A DNA stretch of 64,000 nt, taken from the NCBI GenBank assembly GCA_007556525.1, contig SWJS01000002.1:1-64000 (forward strand), written 5' to 3'. This stretch comes from Lysobacteraceae bacterium CU05-9 (GTDB lineage: Bacteria; Pseudomonadota; Gammaproteobacteria; Xanthomonadales; Xanthomonadaceae). The translations under genes were made by a program, and so were the position numbers. The stretch's first letter is position 1; each line of letters opens with the position of its first letter. Shown here piece by piece: positions 17,988-47,942 of the stretch. The notes beneath the pieces were generated by a model. The model saw only the letters and a program-made list of their open reading frames with translations, was not told the DNA's origin and ran no database searches.

Positions 17988-18063
17988 TGGCGCGCCAGGA
18001 AGGAATCGAACCCTCAACCTGCGGTTTTGGAGACCGCCGCTCTGCCAATTGAGCTACTGACGC
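17988..18063 (-). tRNA. tRNA-Trp (anticodon CCA)
   Basis: The 76 bases fold as a complete cloverleaf: acceptor GCGTCAG against CTGGCGC (one G·U), D-arm GCTC–GAGC, anticodon stem GCGGT–ACCGC with loop CTCCAAA, T-arm GAGGG–CCTTC around TTCGATT, and an encoded CCA end. A tRNA-Trp immediately upstream of secE–nusG is a common arrangement in gammaproteobacteria. Confidence 0.97.
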
Positions 18064-40421: not shown

Positions 40422-41171
40422 TCATTGCGGATCCACGAACTCCCGGAAAATCACTTCATATCCGGACGCTTTCGCCAACTTTTGGACGAGTGCCGTGCCG
40501 ACGATCGGAATGGCACCCATTGCGCGGACACGCTCAAGCGCCGCGGGCTCTGACAAACCGAAACCCACTGCAAGCGGGCGGCCGGAGATCGACTGTAAGT
40601 CCTTTACCCGCTGCGCAATCGGATCGAAATCCTGCGTACCCTCCCCTGTGATTCCCAGACGCGCCACAACGTAGACGAAGCGTTGCGCCGTTGCGTACGC
40701 GTCGCCCGGATCCGGACGTTCCGCAAAAAGCCGCGCAGCACGTTCAACCGACGTCGTCGGCGAAACCAACGGCACAATGTGGTAGCCGGCATCCCTCAAT
40801 GTTGATTCGAACTCGGGCTCTTCGCCGAATGGCAAATCGACGATCAACAGCGAACGAACACGCGTTGCACGCAAACGCTCGATCAATCCCGAGGCTCCCA
40901 TTTGCAATACGGGGTTGAGATATGAGAACAGCACAATGTCCGGACTTTCGCGCACATCGGCAAGACATTCCAAAACACCTTCAAGCGTCACGCGTTGCTC
41001 AATCGCACGCTGCGCTGCTGCTTGCAGAACCGGTCCATCCGCAATTGGATCGGAGTGCGGGACGCCGATTTCAATCGTTGCGATGCCCGCTTTGGCAGCT
41101 GCACGCAGGATGTCCGGCAGTGCATCAAGGGAGGGATCGCCCGCCATGATGAAAGGCATCAAACGTTCCAT
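40422..41171 (-). CDS. trpA: Tryptophan synthase alpha chain
   Basis: A 249-residue alpha subunit that releases indole from indole-glycerol phosphate. It begins MERLMPFIMAGDPSLDALPDIL and shows the catalytic Glu in TIEIGVPHSDPIADGPVLQAA. The family asparate region is represented by SLLIVDLPFGEEPEF and the phosphate loop by AVGFGLSEP. It is the last gene of the trp operon and abuts trpB with no spacer. Confidence 0.95.
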   Translation of the reverse strand: MERLMPFIMAGDPSLDALPDILRAAAKAGIATIEIGVPHSDPIADGPVLQAAAQRAIEQRVTLEGVLECLADVRESPDIVLFSYLNPVLQMGASGLIERLRATRVRSLLIVDLPFGEEPEFESTLRDAGYHIVPLVSPTTSVERAARLFAERPDPGDAYATAQRFVYVVARLGITGEGTQDFDPIAQRVKDLQSISGRPLAVGFGLSEPAALERVRAMGAIPIVGTALVQKLAKASGYEVIFREFVDPQ

Positions 41172-42356
41172 TTAAATCTCCAGACGAGAACGGTAGGTAG
41201 GGGAATCCTTGTCGCCACGACCGGAAAGGCCTAGCAACACCGTGCGGGCACCATCACGCGCAAGGTCACGCAACCGGGCAAGTGCATGACTGGATTCCAA
41301 TGCAGGCAGGATGCCTTCCAATGCGCAGAGTTCCTGCGCCGCGGCCAGTGCTTCATCGTCACTCGCACGCCACACATCGATTAGCCCATCATCAAACCAG
41401 GCCGCGAGCTCCGGTCCGATCGCAGGGTAATCAAGTCCCGCACTGACCGATGCCGTTTCCGCAGTGTGGCCAACCTCGTTTTGCAACAGGAAAGTCCGGC
41501 AACCATGTAACACGCCAATTCGCCCACCGCCGATGCGCGCGGCATGTTCGCCGAGCTGCGTGCCGTGGCCGCCTGCTTCAACAACGACACGGCGCAGCGA
41601 ATCGTTGAGAAATGGTTTGATCAGACCGGAGCTGTTACTGCCACCGCCGACGCAAGCAATGACGGCATCTGGCAGCGAGCCATGACGTTTCAGGATTTGC
41701 TCACGTGCTTCGTCGCCAATCACGGTCTGAAAGGTGCGCACGATCGTCGGGAATGGATGCGGTCCCAGTGCCGAACCAAGAACGTAATGGGCGACGTCGC
41801 AACGCGCGGCCCACGCGCGCAATGCCGCATTGACCGCTTCCTTCAGTGTGCCCTGCCCGCTCTCCACGGCTTCAACTTTCGCGCCGAGCATGCGCATGCG
41901 GAACACGTTGAGCTGCTGCCGCTCCATGTCGACTTCGCCCATGTAGACCGTGCAATTCAGTCCCAACCGCGCACAGGCCGTTGCGGTCGCGACACCGTGT
42001 TGGCCAGCGCCGGTTTCTGCGATGATTTCTTTTTTGCCCATTCGCTTTGCAAGAAGCACTTGTGCAATGGCATTGTTGATCTTGTGCGCACCCGTCAGGC
42101 ATTGGTCTTCGCGCTTGAGGTAGAGATTCTCAAGACCGACGGCCTCAGCCAATCTCGGCGCTGACGTCAACGCCGTTGGACGCCCGACGAAATCATGCAA
42201 TTCCGAATTGAGCGCGTGCAAAAATTCCGGATCCCCCATCGCTGCGACGAACGCTTCTTCAAGTTCGAGCAACGGTGTCATTAACGTTTCCGGCGCATAG
42301 CAACCGCCGAACCCGGATCGCCCGAAGCGCGTCGGCAATTTAAAGTTGGATGGCAT
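41172..42356 (-). CDS. trpB: Tryptophan synthase beta chain
   Basis: A 394-residue PLP enzyme that joins indole and serine. The PLP lysine is in KREDQCLTGAHKINNAIAQ and the phosphate-binding loop is CVGGGSNSSGL; GRPTALTSAPRLAE and AETGAGQHGVATA are typical. I start at ATG 42356, which has GAGGG about 8 bases upstream; it overlaps the trpF end by 17 bases. Confidence 0.96.
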   Translation of the reverse strand: MPSNFKLPTRFGRSGFGGCYAPETLMTPLLELEEAFVAAMGDPEFLHALNSELHDFVGRPTALTSAPRLAEAVGLENLYLKREDQCLTGAHKINNAIAQVLLAKRMGKKEIIAETGAGQHGVATATACARLGLNCTVYMGEVDMERQQLNVFRMRMLGAKVEAVESGQGTLKEAVNAALRAWAARCDVAHYVLGSALGPHPFPTIVRTFQTVIGDEAREQILKRHGSLPDAVIACVGGGSNSSGLIKPFLNDSLRRVVVEAGGHGTQLGEHAARIGGGRIGVLHGCRTFLLQNEVGHTAETASVSAGLDYPAIGPELAAWFDDGLIDVWRASDDEALAAAQELCALEGILPALESSHALARLRDLARDGARTVLLGLSGRGDKDSPTYRSRLEI

Positions 42357-42960
42357 GGACGGCCCTCGTGAAATGCTGGATTTGGGGAATGGATTTACGT
42401 CCGGGCGCGGCTTCAAGTCGCGATGCGGCATCAGCGCCACGGCAATGAATTCGGTGCTGATGGGGCAGTGCCAAAATTCTCGCCCTCACATTGTCGCCCT
42501 CAAGTCCCCCTGCCAACAGGAATGATGAGGGAGGAGGAAATTGCGCAGCGTGATTTTGGCCTGAACCGCCATGTACGCCGGTCTGCGAGGGTGCCGTCTC
42601 CCATAAGTAGAGATCGGCGTTGATGATGTCCTGATCAGGACTGTCCGGCCACGGAAGCAATAACTTCAAATCAAAGGAGTGCACACGGGCATATGCATCC
42701 GCACGTTCCGCCGCGGGCAAATAAGGCTGCACCCAACCAAGTCCGCATGCCAATGCTTCGTCGATGATCGAGTCGATATTGTCCGCAACGCTTACAAGCA
42801 CGCCACGCTGGCCGACATCCGCGCTCGCCTCTTTGAGATTCACGCAATGACGTGGACTCGCCGCATGCCGCACAAAGCCGACTAGGTCCGCCCCAGCTTC
42901 AAGTGCCGCGTGCGCATCAGATGAGCGCGTGATTCCACACACTTTCGCCAACAACGTCAT
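42340..42960 (-). CDS. trpF: Phosphoribosylanthranilate isomerase
   Basis: A 206-residue TIM barrel. The catalytic Cys is in LAKVCGITR, the phosphate sites are HGGSGQ and FLLAGGLEGDNV, and the acid is in ADAASRLEAAPG. The region around residues 125–150 and the strand before ADAASRLE are more divergent than usual, but all catalytic elements are present. The start overlaps the trpC stop (ATGA). Confidence 0.88.
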   Translation of the reverse strand: MTLLAKVCGITRSSDAHAALEAGADLVGFVRHAASPRHCVNLKEASADVGQRGVLVSVADNIDSIIDEALACGLGWVQPYLPAAERADAYARVHSFDLKLLLPWPDSPDQDIINADLYLWETAPSQTGVHGGSGQNHAAQFPPPSSFLLAGGLEGDNVRARILALPHQHRIHCRGADAASRLEAAPGRKSIPQIQHFTRAVHAIQL

Positions 42961-43766
42961 TGCACACACGCCCGCAAAAACAACGCCGGGTCGTCACTGC
43001 GCATCAACGCTTCACCGATCAGGACCGCATCGAAACCTTCCTTGAATGACGCAACGGCATCTTCCGGATTGGTCAAACCGGATTCACGGATCAGAACAGC
43101 GTCCGGAAAAGCATCACGCAATGGAGCAACACTCGGGTGACCGATCGCAAAGCTGGCAAGATCACGTGCGTTCACGCCGACCAATGTGGCGCCACTCTCC
43201 TGCGCAAACGGAATCTCGCTGAAATCATGCAACTCAACGAGCGGCTCCAGTCCACGTGCACGCGCTGCCTCGGCGAACGCCGCTGTGTGCGGACCGAGCA
43301 CACGTGCGATCAATAGCACTGCATCTGCCTGTGCGATCAAGGCAGCTTCATCCAAGTGCTGCTCACTCAGCACGAAGCCTTTGTATAAGCGCGGCATTCC
43401 AAAGTCACGCGCAGCCAAAACTTCGTCCGCACTGCCCTGGAACAGCAGAGGCTCCGCCAGAATTGAAACCGCAGCAGCCCCACCCTCACGGTAGGCGCCC
43501 AATTGCTCCATGAAATCCCGACCCGCCGCGAATGCACCCAAGGAAGGTGATGCCCGTTTGAACTCCGCGATGACCGCGCCGCCACGCTTTAATTTCGTCT
43601 CGCGCAACGCGCGCTCAAACCGTCCTTCGCCCGTGCGCAGTTGCGCGGCAGGTATCGACGTAGCACCAATCCGGGCAAGCTCACTATTCACAACACGACT
43701 GAGATGTGAATCTTCGGGTAAGCGCGCATCACGGACGATCACGTCTGCCGACATCAATGCATTCAT
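42957..43766 (-). CDS. trpC: Indole-3-glycerol phosphate synthase
   Basis: A 269-residue TIM barrel. Hallmarks are AEFKRASPSLGAF (catalytic Lys), VSILAEPLLFQGS, LYKGFVLSEQHLDEA, LVGVNARDLASF and IRESGLTNPEDA. Monofunctional, not fused to TrpF as in enterobacteria. It overlaps trpD by ATGA. Confidence 0.96.
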   Translation of the reverse strand: MNALMSADVIVRDARLPEDSHLSRVVNSELARIGATSIPAAQLRTGEGRFERALRETKLKRGGAVIAEFKRASPSLGAFAAGRDFMEQLGAYREGGAAAVSILAEPLLFQGSADEVLAARDFGMPRLYKGFVLSEQHLDEAALIAQADAVLLIARVLGPHTAAFAEAARARGLEPLVELHDFSEIPFAQESGATLVGVNARDLASFAIGHPSVAPLRDAFPDAVLIRESGLTNPEDAVASFKEGFDAVLIGEALMRSDDPALFLRACVQ

Positions 43767-44794
43767 TTCGTCATCTCCTGCGTAGGCAATGGTGCAATAA
43801 ATCCATTTTCCAAAACATCACGGCATTCACGCATCACCTGAGGTAGTTGAGGCAGTGATTCATTCCGGTGCAGGAGCAAGCCAAGTCCCGCCTGCAGCGC
43901 AACTGCATCTGCAACAGCCGGGCGGAAATCCGCAGAGGCCGATCCCGCCAGACAACCGCGTGCAACTCGCAACGCCTCTTCACGGTCAGCGACACGCAAT
44001 GCATTACGGGGCGGCGTGGCAATCGCCAGATCCCTAGGCACAAGCACTTCAAGAGTCAGGACGTTCCCATCACGCACTTCAAGCACACGCGTTGGTCCTT
44101 CGATGGAAGCCTCGTCCATTCCATTGCCTTCCGCACAGCTGCCATGAATGACGAAACTACGGTGCACACCAAGTCGCGCGAGCGCTCCCGACATGGGCTC
44201 CAGCAAAGTCGGCCGCGCAACACCGAGAACCTGATACGCAGGACGCGCCGGGTTCAACAATGGTCCAAGCAAATTGAAAATCGTGGGAATGCCAAGGCGC
44301 CGGCGAATCTCACGCAGCCGTCCCAGAAGCGGGTGATACATCGGTGCAAAAAGAAACGCAAAGTTCCTTTCGACCAAATCCTGCTTCAAGTGCGTGGCGT
44401 CCCGGGCAAGATCATAGCCGAGCGCCTCCATTAAATCGCCGCTGCCGCAAGTTGAGGTCGCGGCACGATTTCCGTGCTTGGCAACCGGCACACCGAGATG
44501 CGCAAGCAACAGACTCGACAGCGTGCTCAGGTTTGCCGTGGATGCTCTATCACCTCCGGTGCCAACGACATCCAGCACGGCGAGATCACCGCAGTCGAAC
44601 GGCTGTGCTTCCGCGAGCAACACTTGCGCGAACGAATGAAGTTCTTCAGCAGTGGGCTCACGTTGCGCAAGCAGCGCAAGGCATGCACCCACCAGCAATG
44701 CGTCGGTATCCTGATCAACGAACGTGCGCATTAACTCGCTGGCCGTCGCGGCAGGCAGCGGGCGGATTGGATTATGGGAGGTCAGCAACGTCAT
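43763..44794 (-). CDS. trpD: Anthranilate phosphoribosyltransferase
   Basis: A 343-residue enzyme with the PRPP loop DVVGTGGDRASTANLSTLSS, KHGNRAATSTCGSGDLMEALG, and PTIFNLLGPLLNPARP. It is monofunctional (no glutaminase domain). It overlaps trpG and trpC by 4-base start/stop overlaps. Confidence 0.96.
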   Translation of the reverse strand: MTLLTSHNPIRPLPAATASELMRTFVDQDTDALLVGACLALLAQREPTAEELHSFAQVLLAEAQPFDCGDLAVLDVVGTGGDRASTANLSTLSSLLLAHLGVPVAKHGNRAATSTCGSGDLMEALGYDLARDATHLKQDLVERNFAFLFAPMYHPLLGRLREIRRRLGIPTIFNLLGPLLNPARPAYQVLGVARPTLLEPMSGALARLGVHRSFVIHGSCAEGNGMDEASIEGPTRVLEVRDGNVLTLEVLVPRDLAIATPPRNALRVADREEALRVARGCLAGSASADFRPAVADAVALQAGLGLLLHRNESLPQLPQVMRECRDVLENGFIAPLPTQEMTK

Positions 44795-45366
44795 GCGCGC
44801 ACCCCCGCAAGACGCAGTACATTTTCGAGCAATGCTGGACCCTCAGGTGTCAAAATACTTTCCGGATGGAACTGCACGCCCCATCGTGGCAATGTCCGGT
44901 GTGCGATCGCCATCGGTTCACCGGCTGCGGAGCGCGCAGTCACTTCCCAATCACGGGGCAACGAAGACTCCTCGACGATCAAGCTGTGGTAGCGCCCCAC
45001 CATCATCGGATGCGACAACCCCGCAAAAATCCCTTCCCCATCATGCGTAACCGGCGTCGCCTCACCATGCAACGGTTCGCGCGCATGCGTCACGACACCA
45101 CCGCTTCCTGCAGCCAACGCCTGTTGTCCTAAGCAGACACCCAACACCGGCAACTGCATATCACTCGCGGCGACGTCGATATGGATATTGCAATCCAATG
45201 GATGTCCCGGACCCGGCGAAAGGACAACGAGCGACGGATCTTTCGCGCGGACCTCCTCCAGCGTTATCCGGTCAAAGCGTACAACCTCCACTTCCTCACC
45301 CAATGCCTGAAAGGCCTGCACGAGGTTATAAGTAAAACTATCCAGCGCATCAATCAAGAGAATCAT
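44791..45366 (-). CDS. trpG: Anthranilate synthase glutaminase subunit
   Basis: A 191-residue class I glutamine amidotransferase. The nucleophile Cys is in LGVCLGQQALA, where many homologs read GHQ, and the His–Glu pair is in GVQFHPESILTPEG; the start is MILLIDALDSFTYNLV. Its linkage inside the trp operon argues for TrpG rather than PabA, though a dual role is common. Confidence 0.93.
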   Translation of the reverse strand: MILLIDALDSFTYNLVQAFQALGEEVEVVRFDRITLEEVRAKDPSLVVLSPGPGHPLDCNIHIDVAASDMQLPVLGVCLGQQALAAGSGGVVTHAREPLHGEATPVTHDGEGIFAGLSHPMMVGRYHSLIVEESSLPRDWEVTARSAAGEPMAIAHRTLPRWGVQFHPESILTPEGPALLENVLRLAGVRA

Positions 45367-46751
45367 TCGGCGCCCTCCAATACATCCAGCGAAACGCCCA
45401 TTGCCGCAGCCGGCGCGCGGAGTTTATGCAACGTCTCTTGATATTCGGCGTGTGCATTGGAAGCGCGAACGATGCCTGCACCGGCCTGCAACCATGCATG
45501 GCCATCGGCATACACTGCAGTGCGCAGAATCAGCGCACTGTCCAAAACCCCATCAATCCCCAATTTGATCAGCGCTCCGGCATAAGGTCCGCGCGCATCG
45601 CCTTCGAGCTCAACAATGCGCTTCACGGCGCGCAGCTTCGGCGCACCGCTGACGGTACCTGCAGGGAAACACGAAGCGAGTACATCCAATGCATCGACGT
45701 CGTCCCGCAATTTCGCTTTCACTGTCGTCGTTAAGTGCAAGACATGACTGGTGCGCAAAAGCGTCAGCGGTTTTTCGACGGACACTGCACCGGGCGCCGC
45801 GCATCTGCCCAAATCATTGCGCGAGAGGTCCACCAACATCTGATGCTCGGCGAGTTCCTTCGGATCGGTCCGCAATGCATCGAACCGCGCCATATCGTCG
45901 TCATGATCATTTCCGCGTGGCACCGTGCCCGCGATTGGCAGTGTCTCCGCTTCGCCATCACTCACGCGCACGAGCATTTCCGGCGACGCACCGGCAAGTG
46001 CGAAACCATCCCATTCAAGAAGATATCCGTACGCACTTGGATTGAAGCGGCGCATGCGGCGATAAGCGCTTAACGGTGACGGTGGATTCTCGATGCGAAG
46101 GCGCTGACTCGGCACCACCTGATAAACATCGCCATCACGGATGAGCCCTTGCGCATGCGTCACGTGTGCTTCGTAGGCGGAGCGCTTAATGGTCGCGAAA
46201 GCCCGCGGCGATCCGGGATCCTCACGCGCCAGTGTCGGCTGCGACAGAGCGAGGCGCAGAGAAAGGAGTTTATGGCGGACTGCACCCAAATCCGTTCCCA
46301 ACACCTGTAGCTCAGCTACTTGATGAAGATGGTCAAAAACCAACGCCGCATTGAACCGCCGCGCCCACACGGTCGGCAATCCCAATGAGTTGCGCGCAGG
46401 CAATGTCAATGTCGGTTCATCAGCAATGACGGCTTCAAATCCAACGTATCCCGCGATACCCACACCGATGGGCATCGCATCGCGACCGGGCGGCAACTCG
46501 GAGGCTTCATCAAACACACCGGCGTTATCAACCACCGGACCCGCGAAATCACGCAACGCCTGCACCCACCCGCTCACGCGACCTTCCAGTTTCAATTCAC
46601 CACTATCCTGGATCAGGACGAAACTGTGCCGACCCACGCGCTCGCCTTGATCGGCTGACTCCAGCAGCAAACTGGCGCCGTGAGAACGCAACGCCAGATA
46701 GGCGGATAGCGGTGTGATGAGATCGGCAGGTAATCGGTAGCGGATAAACAT
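45363..46751 (-). CDS. trpE: Anthranilate synthase component I
   Basis: A 462-residue chorismate-utilising enzyme. The feedback-site motif LLLESAD (near residue 36) and catalytic blocks LPIAGTVPRG, HQMLVDLSRNDLGRCA, FPAGTVSGAPKLRA and RGPYAGALIKLGIDG are all present. ATG 46751 (MFIRYRLPAD) is chosen because family similarity begins there; an in-frame ATG at 46766, three bases after the attenuator T-run, is possible but lacks a ribosome binding site. Transcription is controlled by the attenuator directly upstream. Confidence 0.94.
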   Translation of the reverse strand: MFIRYRLPADLITPLSAYLALRSHGASLLLESADQGERVGRHSFVLIQDSGELKLEGRVSGWVQALRDFAGPVVDNAGVFDEASELPPGRDAMPIGVGIAGYVGFEAVIADEPTLTLPARNSLGLPTVWARRFNAALVFDHLHQVAELQVLGTDLGAVRHKLLSLRLALSQPTLAREDPGSPRAFATIKRSAYEAHVTHAQGLIRDGDVYQVVPSQRLRIENPPSPLSAYRRMRRFNPSAYGYLLEWDGFALAGASPEMLVRVSDGEAETLPIAGTVPRGNDHDDDMARFDALRTDPKELAEHQMLVDLSRNDLGRCAAPGAVSVEKPLTLLRTSHVLHLTTTVKAKLRDDVDALDVLASCFPAGTVSGAPKLRAVKRIVELEGDARGPYAGALIKLGIDGVLDSALILRTAVYADGHAWLQAGAGIVRASNAHAEYQETLHKLRAPAAAMGVSLDVLEGAE

Positions 46752-46768: not shown

Positions 46769-46800
46769 AAAAAAAGAGCCCGGTCATTTGAACCGGGCTC
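46769..46800 (-). terminator. trp operon attenuator (intrinsic terminator)
   Basis: GAGCCCGGT and ACCGGGCTC form a perfect 9-bp GC-rich stem with a 7-base loop, followed by seven Ts. The competing antiterminator is equally clear: GGCTCGGG (46849–46856, inside the leader peptide just after the Trp codons) is an exact reverse complement of CCCGAGCC (46796–46803), which includes the terminator's 5' arm. A ribosome stalled at the Trp codons should favour the antiterminator. Confidence 0.95.
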
Positions 46801-46823
46801 GGGAATTCAACAATCAGGCGCAG

Positions 46824-46916
46824 TTACACGTGCACGCCGGGTGAGTCTCCCGAGCCACAGCGCCACCACGCATTGAATGCGGTATGGAAAACAACGTGGG
46901 TCACGGGAAAAGTCAT
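46824..46916 (-). CDS. trpL: trp operon leader peptide with tandem Trp codons
   Basis: A 30-residue peptide starting MTFPVTHVV and ending PGVHV, with Trp17-Trp18 encoded by adjacent TGG codons in NAWWRCGSG. The reading frame ends 24 bases before the terminator's 5' arm, and its second half contains the antiterminator strand. The ATG lies about 7 bases after the predicted -10 element, so it may sit at or next to the transcription start. AGG three bases upstream is at best a poor ribosome binding site. Confidence 0.92.
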   Translation of the reverse strand: MTFPVTHVVFHTAFNAWWRCGSGDSPGVHV

Positions 46917-46922
46917 TTGCCT

Positions 46923-46951
46923 ATCTAAATGCATCAATCAAATTTTGTCAA
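46923..46951 (-). promoter_or_regulatory. Promoter of the trp operon
   Basis: A perfect TTGACA (46946–46951) is followed after 17 bases by TTAGAT, or after 18 by TAGATA, as the -10 element. It lies 44 bases after the pyrB stop, on the same strand. I see no terminator between pyrB and this promoter and no obvious TrpR operator. Confidence 0.65.
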
Positions 46952-46994: not shown

Positions 46995-47942
46995 CTAATG
47001 CACATTCAGCGGCTTCGTGAGGAGCGCTTCCATCACCGCCGAGCGCATCGCGACACCATTGCTCACTTGACGCAAGATCATTGATTGTTTGCAGTCTGCG
47101 ACGTCGTCTGAAATTTCAACACCGCGGTTGACCGGACCCGGATGCAGGACGACCGCGTCAGGGCGCGCGTACGCGAGGCGCTTCGCAGTGAGTCCGTATT
47201 GTTCGTGATAATCCTTGAGTGATTCGACCATGCCCTCTTCCATGCGCTCGCGTTGCAGACGCAGCATCATCACGACGTCAGCGCCATCGAGGGCAGCATC
47301 GAAATCGTGCGTGATGTTGAAGCCTTCGAGGATTTCGTCATCCATTGGAAGCAGCGTACGTGGACCGCAGACACGGACGTCGCGGACGCCGAGTGCGCGC
47401 AAGGCGTGTAGGTCTGAGCGGGCGACGCGGGAGTGTGCGATGTCGCCGGTGATCACGACACGCAGACGCGAGAAGTCACGGCCCTTCGCTTGACGGATCG
47501 TCAGCATGTCGAGCAGACCTTGCGTCGGATGATTGGCGCAGCCGTCACCGGCGTTGATCACAGCAGTTGATGGACCGGCAATGGCGGCGAGTGCGGCGGC
47601 GGCACCGTCTTCGCGATGGCGAATCACGAATCCGCGGACACCCATCGCTTCAATGTTGCGGAACGTGTCGGCAGCGGATTCGCCTTTCGTCGTAGAGGAA
47701 TTCGCAGCTTCGAAATTCAGGACTTCCGCGCCGAGTTGCTGTGCGGCGAGTTGGAAGCTGAGGCGCGTGCGCGTGGACGGTTCAAAGAAAAGCGTGCAAA
47801 CCCCAACACCCCGCAACGGCTGATAGAGGTACTTCCCTTCCACAAACTCCTGGGCGCGATCAAGCAAGCCGTGGATGGTTTCGTCGGAGATGTTCTCGAG
47901 TGAGAGAAGGTGGCGAAGCGGAGTCTTGATTTGAACCGTCAT
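46995..47942 (-). CDS. pyrB: Aspartate carbamoyltransferase catalytic subunit
   Basis: A 315-residue ATCase. The carbamoyl-phosphate loop is FFEPSTRTRLSFQLA, followed by NSSTTKGESAADT (mobile 80s loop), HPTQGLLD, and HPGPVNRG. No pyrI or dihydroorotase-like pyrC' follows. The start is ATG 47942 (MTVQIKTPLRHLL); the ribosome binding site is poor. It is the last gene of yqgE–ruvX–pyrB. Confidence 0.96.
   Translation of the reverse strand: MTVQIKTPLRHLLSLENISDETIHGLLDRAQEFVEGKYLYQPLRGVGVCTLFFEPSTRTRLSFQLAAQQLGAEVLNFEAANSSTTKGESAADTFRNIEAMGVRGFVIRHREDGAAAALAAIAGPSTAVINAGDGCANHPTQGLLDMLTIRQAKGRDFSRLRVVITGDIAHSRVARSDLHALRALGVRDVRVCGPRTLLPMDDEILEGFNITHDFDAALDGADVVMMLRLQRERMEEGMVESLKDYHEQYGLTAKRLAYARPDAVVLHPGPVNRGVEISDDVADCKQSMILRQVSNGVAMRSAVMEALLTKPLNVH

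Follow-up and report, generated by a model that had tools for sequence, protein, structure and literature searches.

In Escherichia coli, the trp attenuator (trpL) combines a leader open reading frame (ORF) carrying tandem Trp codons with mutually exclusive antiterminator and terminator hairpins that share an arm, and it is located directly before trpE and the other genes of the pathway. In Sinorhizobium meliloti, the trpLE(G) RNA begins with the ATG of the leader, which encodes a 14-amino-acid peptide ending two residues after WWW, and attenuation acts on trpE(G) only (PMC7298713). In a theoretical study that drew a comparison with the his leader, Elf and Ehrenberg (2005) proposed that a stop codon inside region II serves to obtain low basal read-through. 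We analyzed a 64,000-nucleotide (nt) stretch of the genome of Lysobacteraceae bacterium CU05-9, called the window hereafter, in which a trp attenuator had been predicted upstream of a complete set of trp genes. Our results make it very probable that positions 46951-46769, on the minus strand, hold a transcription attenuator that is mediated by the ribosome and serves the whole trpEGDCFBA operon. It shares with E. coli trpL the tandem Trp codons, the two competing hairpins with their common arm and the position ahead of trpE and the remaining genes. Like the S. meliloti leader, it has tandem Trp codons in an attenuator before trpE, and its RNA is predicted to begin at the ATG as well, but its ORF is 30 codons long and it precedes all seven genes. 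This attenuator is thus a known kind of system, and its layout is a variant.

The leader is headed by a consensus -35 element, TTGACA (46946-46951), and 17 nt further 3′ by a -10 element, TTAGAT (46923-46928), which ends 6 nt before the leader ATG. The trpL ORF (46824-46916) starts with this ATG at 46916, comprises 30 codons followed by TAA (46826-46824) and reads MTFPVTHVVFHTAFNAWWRCGSGDSPGVHV; as predicted, it contains two adjacent TGG codons (46863-46868). Region 1, the 5′ arm of the protector hairpin, was identified by folding at the start of the ORF (46895-46910), and its partner, region 2 (GGCTCGGGAG, 46847-46856), also lies within the ORF and constitutes the 5′ arm of the antiterminator. 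The loop of an inner antiterminator hairpin (46817-46838) contains the stop codon of the leader; this hairpin takes the form GGCGC..stop..GCGCC in the related leaders described below and is weaker in the window. Region 3 (46796-46805), the 3′ arm of the antiterminator, overlaps the 5′ arm of the intrinsic terminator formed by regions 3 and 4 (46769-46800). The terminator stem (46800-46776) closes a 5-nt loop and is followed by seven T residues (46775-46769). This run agrees with the original prediction, which had however counted nine base pairs, whereas the stem has 10 when its single G-U pair is included. The complementarity proposed for the antiterminator was confirmed, GGCTCGGG (46856-46849) being the exact complement of CCCGAGCC (46803-46796), with 5 nt in common with the terminator arm; the 8 exact base pairs become 10 once a G-U pair is counted.

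No Shine-Dalgarno sequence precedes the leader ATG. In all nine distinct leaders compared, namely that of the window and those of its relatives, the -35 element is TTGACA, at the matching place, with a promoter spacing of 17 to 18 nt, and the -10 element ends 6 to 7 nt before the ATG. The -10 hexamer of the relatives reads TTTCAT or TTTGAT, with 18-nt spacing. As the -10 hexamer ends so close to the ATG, the transcript should start at or next to the A of this codon, and judging from this promoter spacing the leader RNA is probably leaderless. A second in-frame ATG is found upstream of the leader start, but it overlaps the -10 region and therefore should not be transcribed.

To estimate how often such an arrangement arises by chance, the joint anatomy was coded as a terminator stem of at least eight pairs with a T run, a perfect 8-nt upstream complement of the 5′ arm of that stem, and, just 5′ of this complement, an open frame containing adjacent Trp codons. 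The three elements are present in the real 243-nt pyrB-trpE gap, whereas none of 20,000 dinucleotide shuffles had them all; a terminator occurred 62 times in those shuffles, and a terminator with an antiterminator once. A scan of both strands of the 64-kb window identified the joint anatomy at this one place only. The full leader folded more stably than its shuffled counterparts, with a z score of -2.5.

Computed folding of the leader rows yielded a probability of pairing between regions 2 and 3, P(2:3), of 0.95 to 1.00 before the 3′ arm of the terminator exists. In the complete leader with no ribosome, the probability of pairing between regions 1 and 2, P(1:2), was 0.54 to 0.82 in nine of the 10 rows, and the terminator formed. 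The sequence of region 1 varies, and its pairing with region 2 is kept in part through changes of C-G to U-G. The mask of a ribosome holding the first Trp codon in its A site stopped one nucleotide short of region 2, and P(2:3) was then 1.00. Moving the ribosome on to the second Trp codon reduced P(2:3) to values between 0.01 and 0.61.

The anatomy and these computed pairings suggest the following scheme. Transcription would start at the leader ATG or directly beside it, and when Trp-tRNA is scarce the translating ribosome would stall at the tandem Trp codons, with region 1 behind it and region 2 just ahead. As a stall at this place separates region 1 from region 2, the antiterminator would be favored, region 2 would pair with region 3, the terminator would be blocked and the operon transcribed. 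When Trp-tRNA is plentiful, the ribosome would continue across region 2 to the stop codon 24 to 30 nt further on. Region 2 would be masked by the ribosome and then, in its wake, be open to capture by region 1, leaving region 3 free to form the terminator. Since region 2 is translated, the ribosome would sweep through it, whereas in E. coli it parks immediately ahead of this region.

The layout of the leader indeed differs from that of E. coli in several respects. Its stop codon begins downstream of the start of region 2, by 30 nt in the window and by 24 nt in the five relatives measured, whereas in E. coli it precedes region 2 by 6 nt, and 10 to 12 codons follow the WW pair rather than three. 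Unlike in E. coli, the 5′ arm of the antiterminator is inside the leader reading frame, and the RNA is probably leaderless, with no Shine-Dalgarno sequence. The E. coli leader used as a control was 100% identical to RefSeq genomes annotated as trpL. The window leader matched the Rfam family RF00513 (Trp_leader) over its full length (1-100) with 28.1 bits and an E value of 0.022, under the gathering score of 41; elsewhere in the window's genome, every match to this family was below threshold.

The same layout is found in the low-basal-level design of Elf and Ehrenberg (2005), of which the window thus provides a natural example, with the stop codon inside region II, in an operon that holds the entire pathway. 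Those authors discussed the layout for an operon under attenuation alone. No match to TrpR above cut-off was obtained in the window's genome, which is 99.97% complete, but TrpR is present in six of the eight relatives that share this layout. Loss of the repressor is therefore not the reason for the layout, and this explanation was ruled out.

The relatives were identified by a DNA search of 395 genomes of the family together with a search of genome contigs. The leader was found in Lysobacter silvestris and in seven further genomes of the same genus (g59), i.e., in eight relatives in total. All eight keep every element of the leader, including the terminator, whereas the flanking sequences diverge. 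In the alignment of the nine leaders, TGGTGG, GTGGCTCGGG, which is the invariant part of region 2 in all relatives, and CCCGAGCCCGGT of region 3 do not change, while the 5′ codons, the loops and the spacer vary. The relative peptides, e.g., MHHLPAPSAFQTTQRAWWWRRGSGDSPGA and MNTQQQHSTLDTRAALRGWWRCGSGASAGA (starts picked after the -10 element), retain the frame, the WW pair and a C-terminal tail, R-x-G-S-G-x-S-x-G, and every relative's ORF has two or three Trp codons. A covariance model, R1, was built from six of the leaders and run against the 395 family genomes and 369 genomes of the class. The window and the eight relatives matched at E values below 1e-16, and every other listed match was above 1e-4. 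Weak matches at L139-L145, from other genera and the class, were discarded, as the stretches fetched had no trpE or tandem-Trp leader in such an arrangement.

The trp attenuator reading is hence supported by the anatomy of the leader, by the genes around it and by its conservation in the eight relatives. The observed anatomy is confirmed as real, and the original prediction was right in every important detail. It had also looked to leaders across the Xanthomonadales for support; the homologues do favor the reading, but this leader type is not general in the order, its carriers being the genome of the window and eight of the 17 genomes of one other genus.

Three observations weigh against the proposed attenuation. 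The leader at locus L126 has weak pairing between regions 1 and 2, with a probability of 0.30 in the full leader. A ribosome at the stop codon still permits regions 2 and 3 to pair around it (equilibrium probability, 0.86 to 1.00), and termination at high Trp must therefore rest on timing, on ribosome bulk or on early pairing of regions 1 and 2. Lastly, comparison of the leaders had been expected to reveal kept Trp codons and covariation in the two stems. The WW pair is kept in all nine leaders and the stems are present, but the antiterminator arms are invariant, hence no covariation is available to test that helix.

It may be that the leader peptide or the short terminated RNA also acts in trans, besides attenuation in cis, although we regard this as unlikely. 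In S. meliloti, where trpL is leaderless, the products peTrpL and rnTrpL act in trans (PMC7298713); the conservation of the R-x-G-S-G-x-S-x-G tail 3′ of the Trp codons would fit such a role. However, region 2 is what encodes this tail, and the RNA pairing of that region is enough to explain most of the conservation; moreover, the alphaproteobacterial peptides have no sequence conservation beyond their Trp residues, according to the same report (PMC7298713).

We also considered that the terminator might chiefly end transcription coming from pyrB, the short ORF and the antiterminator being incidental. pyrB is upstream on the same strand and ends at 46995, and a terminator at this place would also halt its read-through. 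In L. silvestris, however, pyrB is downstream of the operon and on the opposite strand, yet the leader is retained. The invariance of the Trp codons and of the antiterminator arm and the absence of the combination from all 20,000 shuffles also argue against this explanation, which we hold to be very improbable. Least probable of all is a leader that works without a translating ribosome, e.g., by binding of a protein or of uncharged tRNA to the RNA: the untranslated leader RNA does fold with regions 1 and 2 paired and the terminator formed, so that the default is off and a bound protein or tRNA could lift it, but all nine leaders retain the frame with its start codon and the adjacent Trp codons, features required for translation alone, and no T-box or other Rfam match outscored Trp_leader.

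Downstream of the attenuator, family-model searches identified all seven trp genes that the original prediction had placed there. They are on the minus strand in the order E-G-D-C-F-B-A, and their frames overlap or touch. trpG (44791-45366; TIGR00566), trpD (43763-44794; TIGR01245), trpB (41172-42440; TIGR00263) and trpA (40422-41171; TIGR00262) were recognized above the cut-offs of their models, the coordinates of trpB being those of its longest ORF, with the true start further in. trpC (42957-43766) was matched by TrpC models with E values to 3e-50, under their cut-offs. trpF (42340-42969) is very divergent, with 65 bits versus a cut-off of 215, and was assigned with the help of its position in the operon; its product is 67% identical to the L. 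silvestris counterpart. trpE (45363-46751) encodes a divergent anthranilate synthase component I that scored 383 bits with TIGR00564, for which the cut-off is 518. The longest trpE ORF opens at 46787, in the terminator loop, but the ATG at 46751 was preferred from the alignment of the N terminus with those of the relatives. Automatic annotation may choose the wrong one of these two starts.

The TrpE proteins of the window and of the leader-bearing relatives form one clade (support, 100/100) on a long branch, whose placement in the tree is unsure. They are 67 to 84% identical to one another, compared with at most 43% identity to TrpE of other Xanthomonadaceae, related families or Acinetobacter. 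The search for a donor of the divergent operon was negative, as no sampled gammaproteobacterial genome but the window's own reached an E value of 1e-90. The operon may have been acquired from a source outside the sample, or it may have diverged fast. Among the 17 genomes of g59, eight have the leader and the divergent TrpE, eight have an ordinary TrpE without such a leader, and one is without TrpE. The leader was seen only ahead of the divergent operon type. This co-occurrence in g59 suggests that the leader and the divergent seven-gene operon were inherited as a unit. Genome G251, which belongs to g59 and is 99% complete, gave a PabB-like match and no TrpE, and the organism is perhaps a tryptophan auxotroph.

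In the majority of the other Xanthomonadaceae, the ordinary trpE is preceded by a different Trp-rich ORF, without a terminator. It starts with ATG or GTG, 6 to 7 nt (once 5 nt) past TA(C/A/G)AGT or a near match, and is probably leaderless to judge from this spacing. This second leader type carries Trp-Arg-Trp-Trp-Pro within TGGCGATGGTGGCC and was located upstream of trpE at loci L013, L018, L030, L033, L161-L168 and L184-L228. A second covariance model, R2, had matches in 276 of 390 family genomes and 34 of 54 genera at E values up to 1e-3, the weakest of which may be due to chance, and the Trp-Arg-Trp leader looks like a widespread terminator-less type across the family. In g59, it is present in all eight genomes with ordinary TrpE and in none of the eight window-type genomes. 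Both leader types have leaderless promoter spacing and Trp codons and precede trpE or, for the second type, trpG. In contrast, they have no evident sequence homology, and the second type lacks a terminator and usually has an ORF overlapping the trpE start. Six Trp-Arg-Trp loci were compared with Rfam and had no match at a useful score. A literature search covering few subscription journals found no description of this leader, and one may already exist.

The Trp-Arg-Trp frame usually crosses the trpE start, out of frame, and stops within trpE; this stop precedes by 16 nt the codon that aligns with the first residue of TrpE in the window. In some genomes, the leader instead stops directly after Trp-Arg-Trp or WRWWP. 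In a first sample, a stop at that trpE codon was found in 11 of 13 overlapping cases versus none of 24 others (Fisher p, 9e-8, uncorrected for shared ancestry). Shortened leaders were observed at L163, L165, L168, L218 and L224, and in the three checked for it, L163, L165 and L168, the out-of-frame stop is gone from trpE. A second copy precedes trpG in four of the genomes examined (L222, L223, L225 and L204), the leader stop being 142 to 189 nt 5′ of trpG.

Such an arrangement might control translation. When Trp is plentiful, initiation at trpE would be blocked by ribosomes translating across its start, and a stall at the Trp codons would leave that start accessible. We see an even chance that Xanthomonadaceae use two unrelated leaderless trp leader peptides, the widespread Trp-Arg-Trp(-Trp) type acting by translational control without a terminator and the lineage of the window having the divergent operon with a terminator-type attenuator instead. 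The second type is a more novel lead than the window attenuator and, if true, would represent a simple, testable case of control by ribosomes reading across the start of another gene. Matches to WW upstream of Acinetobacter trpE were set aside, as many look like frames of upstream coding sequence.

The sole tRNA gene of the window is a tRNA-Trp gene (CCA; 17988-18063). It is 29 kb from the trp leader, and its presence there is probably a coincidence.
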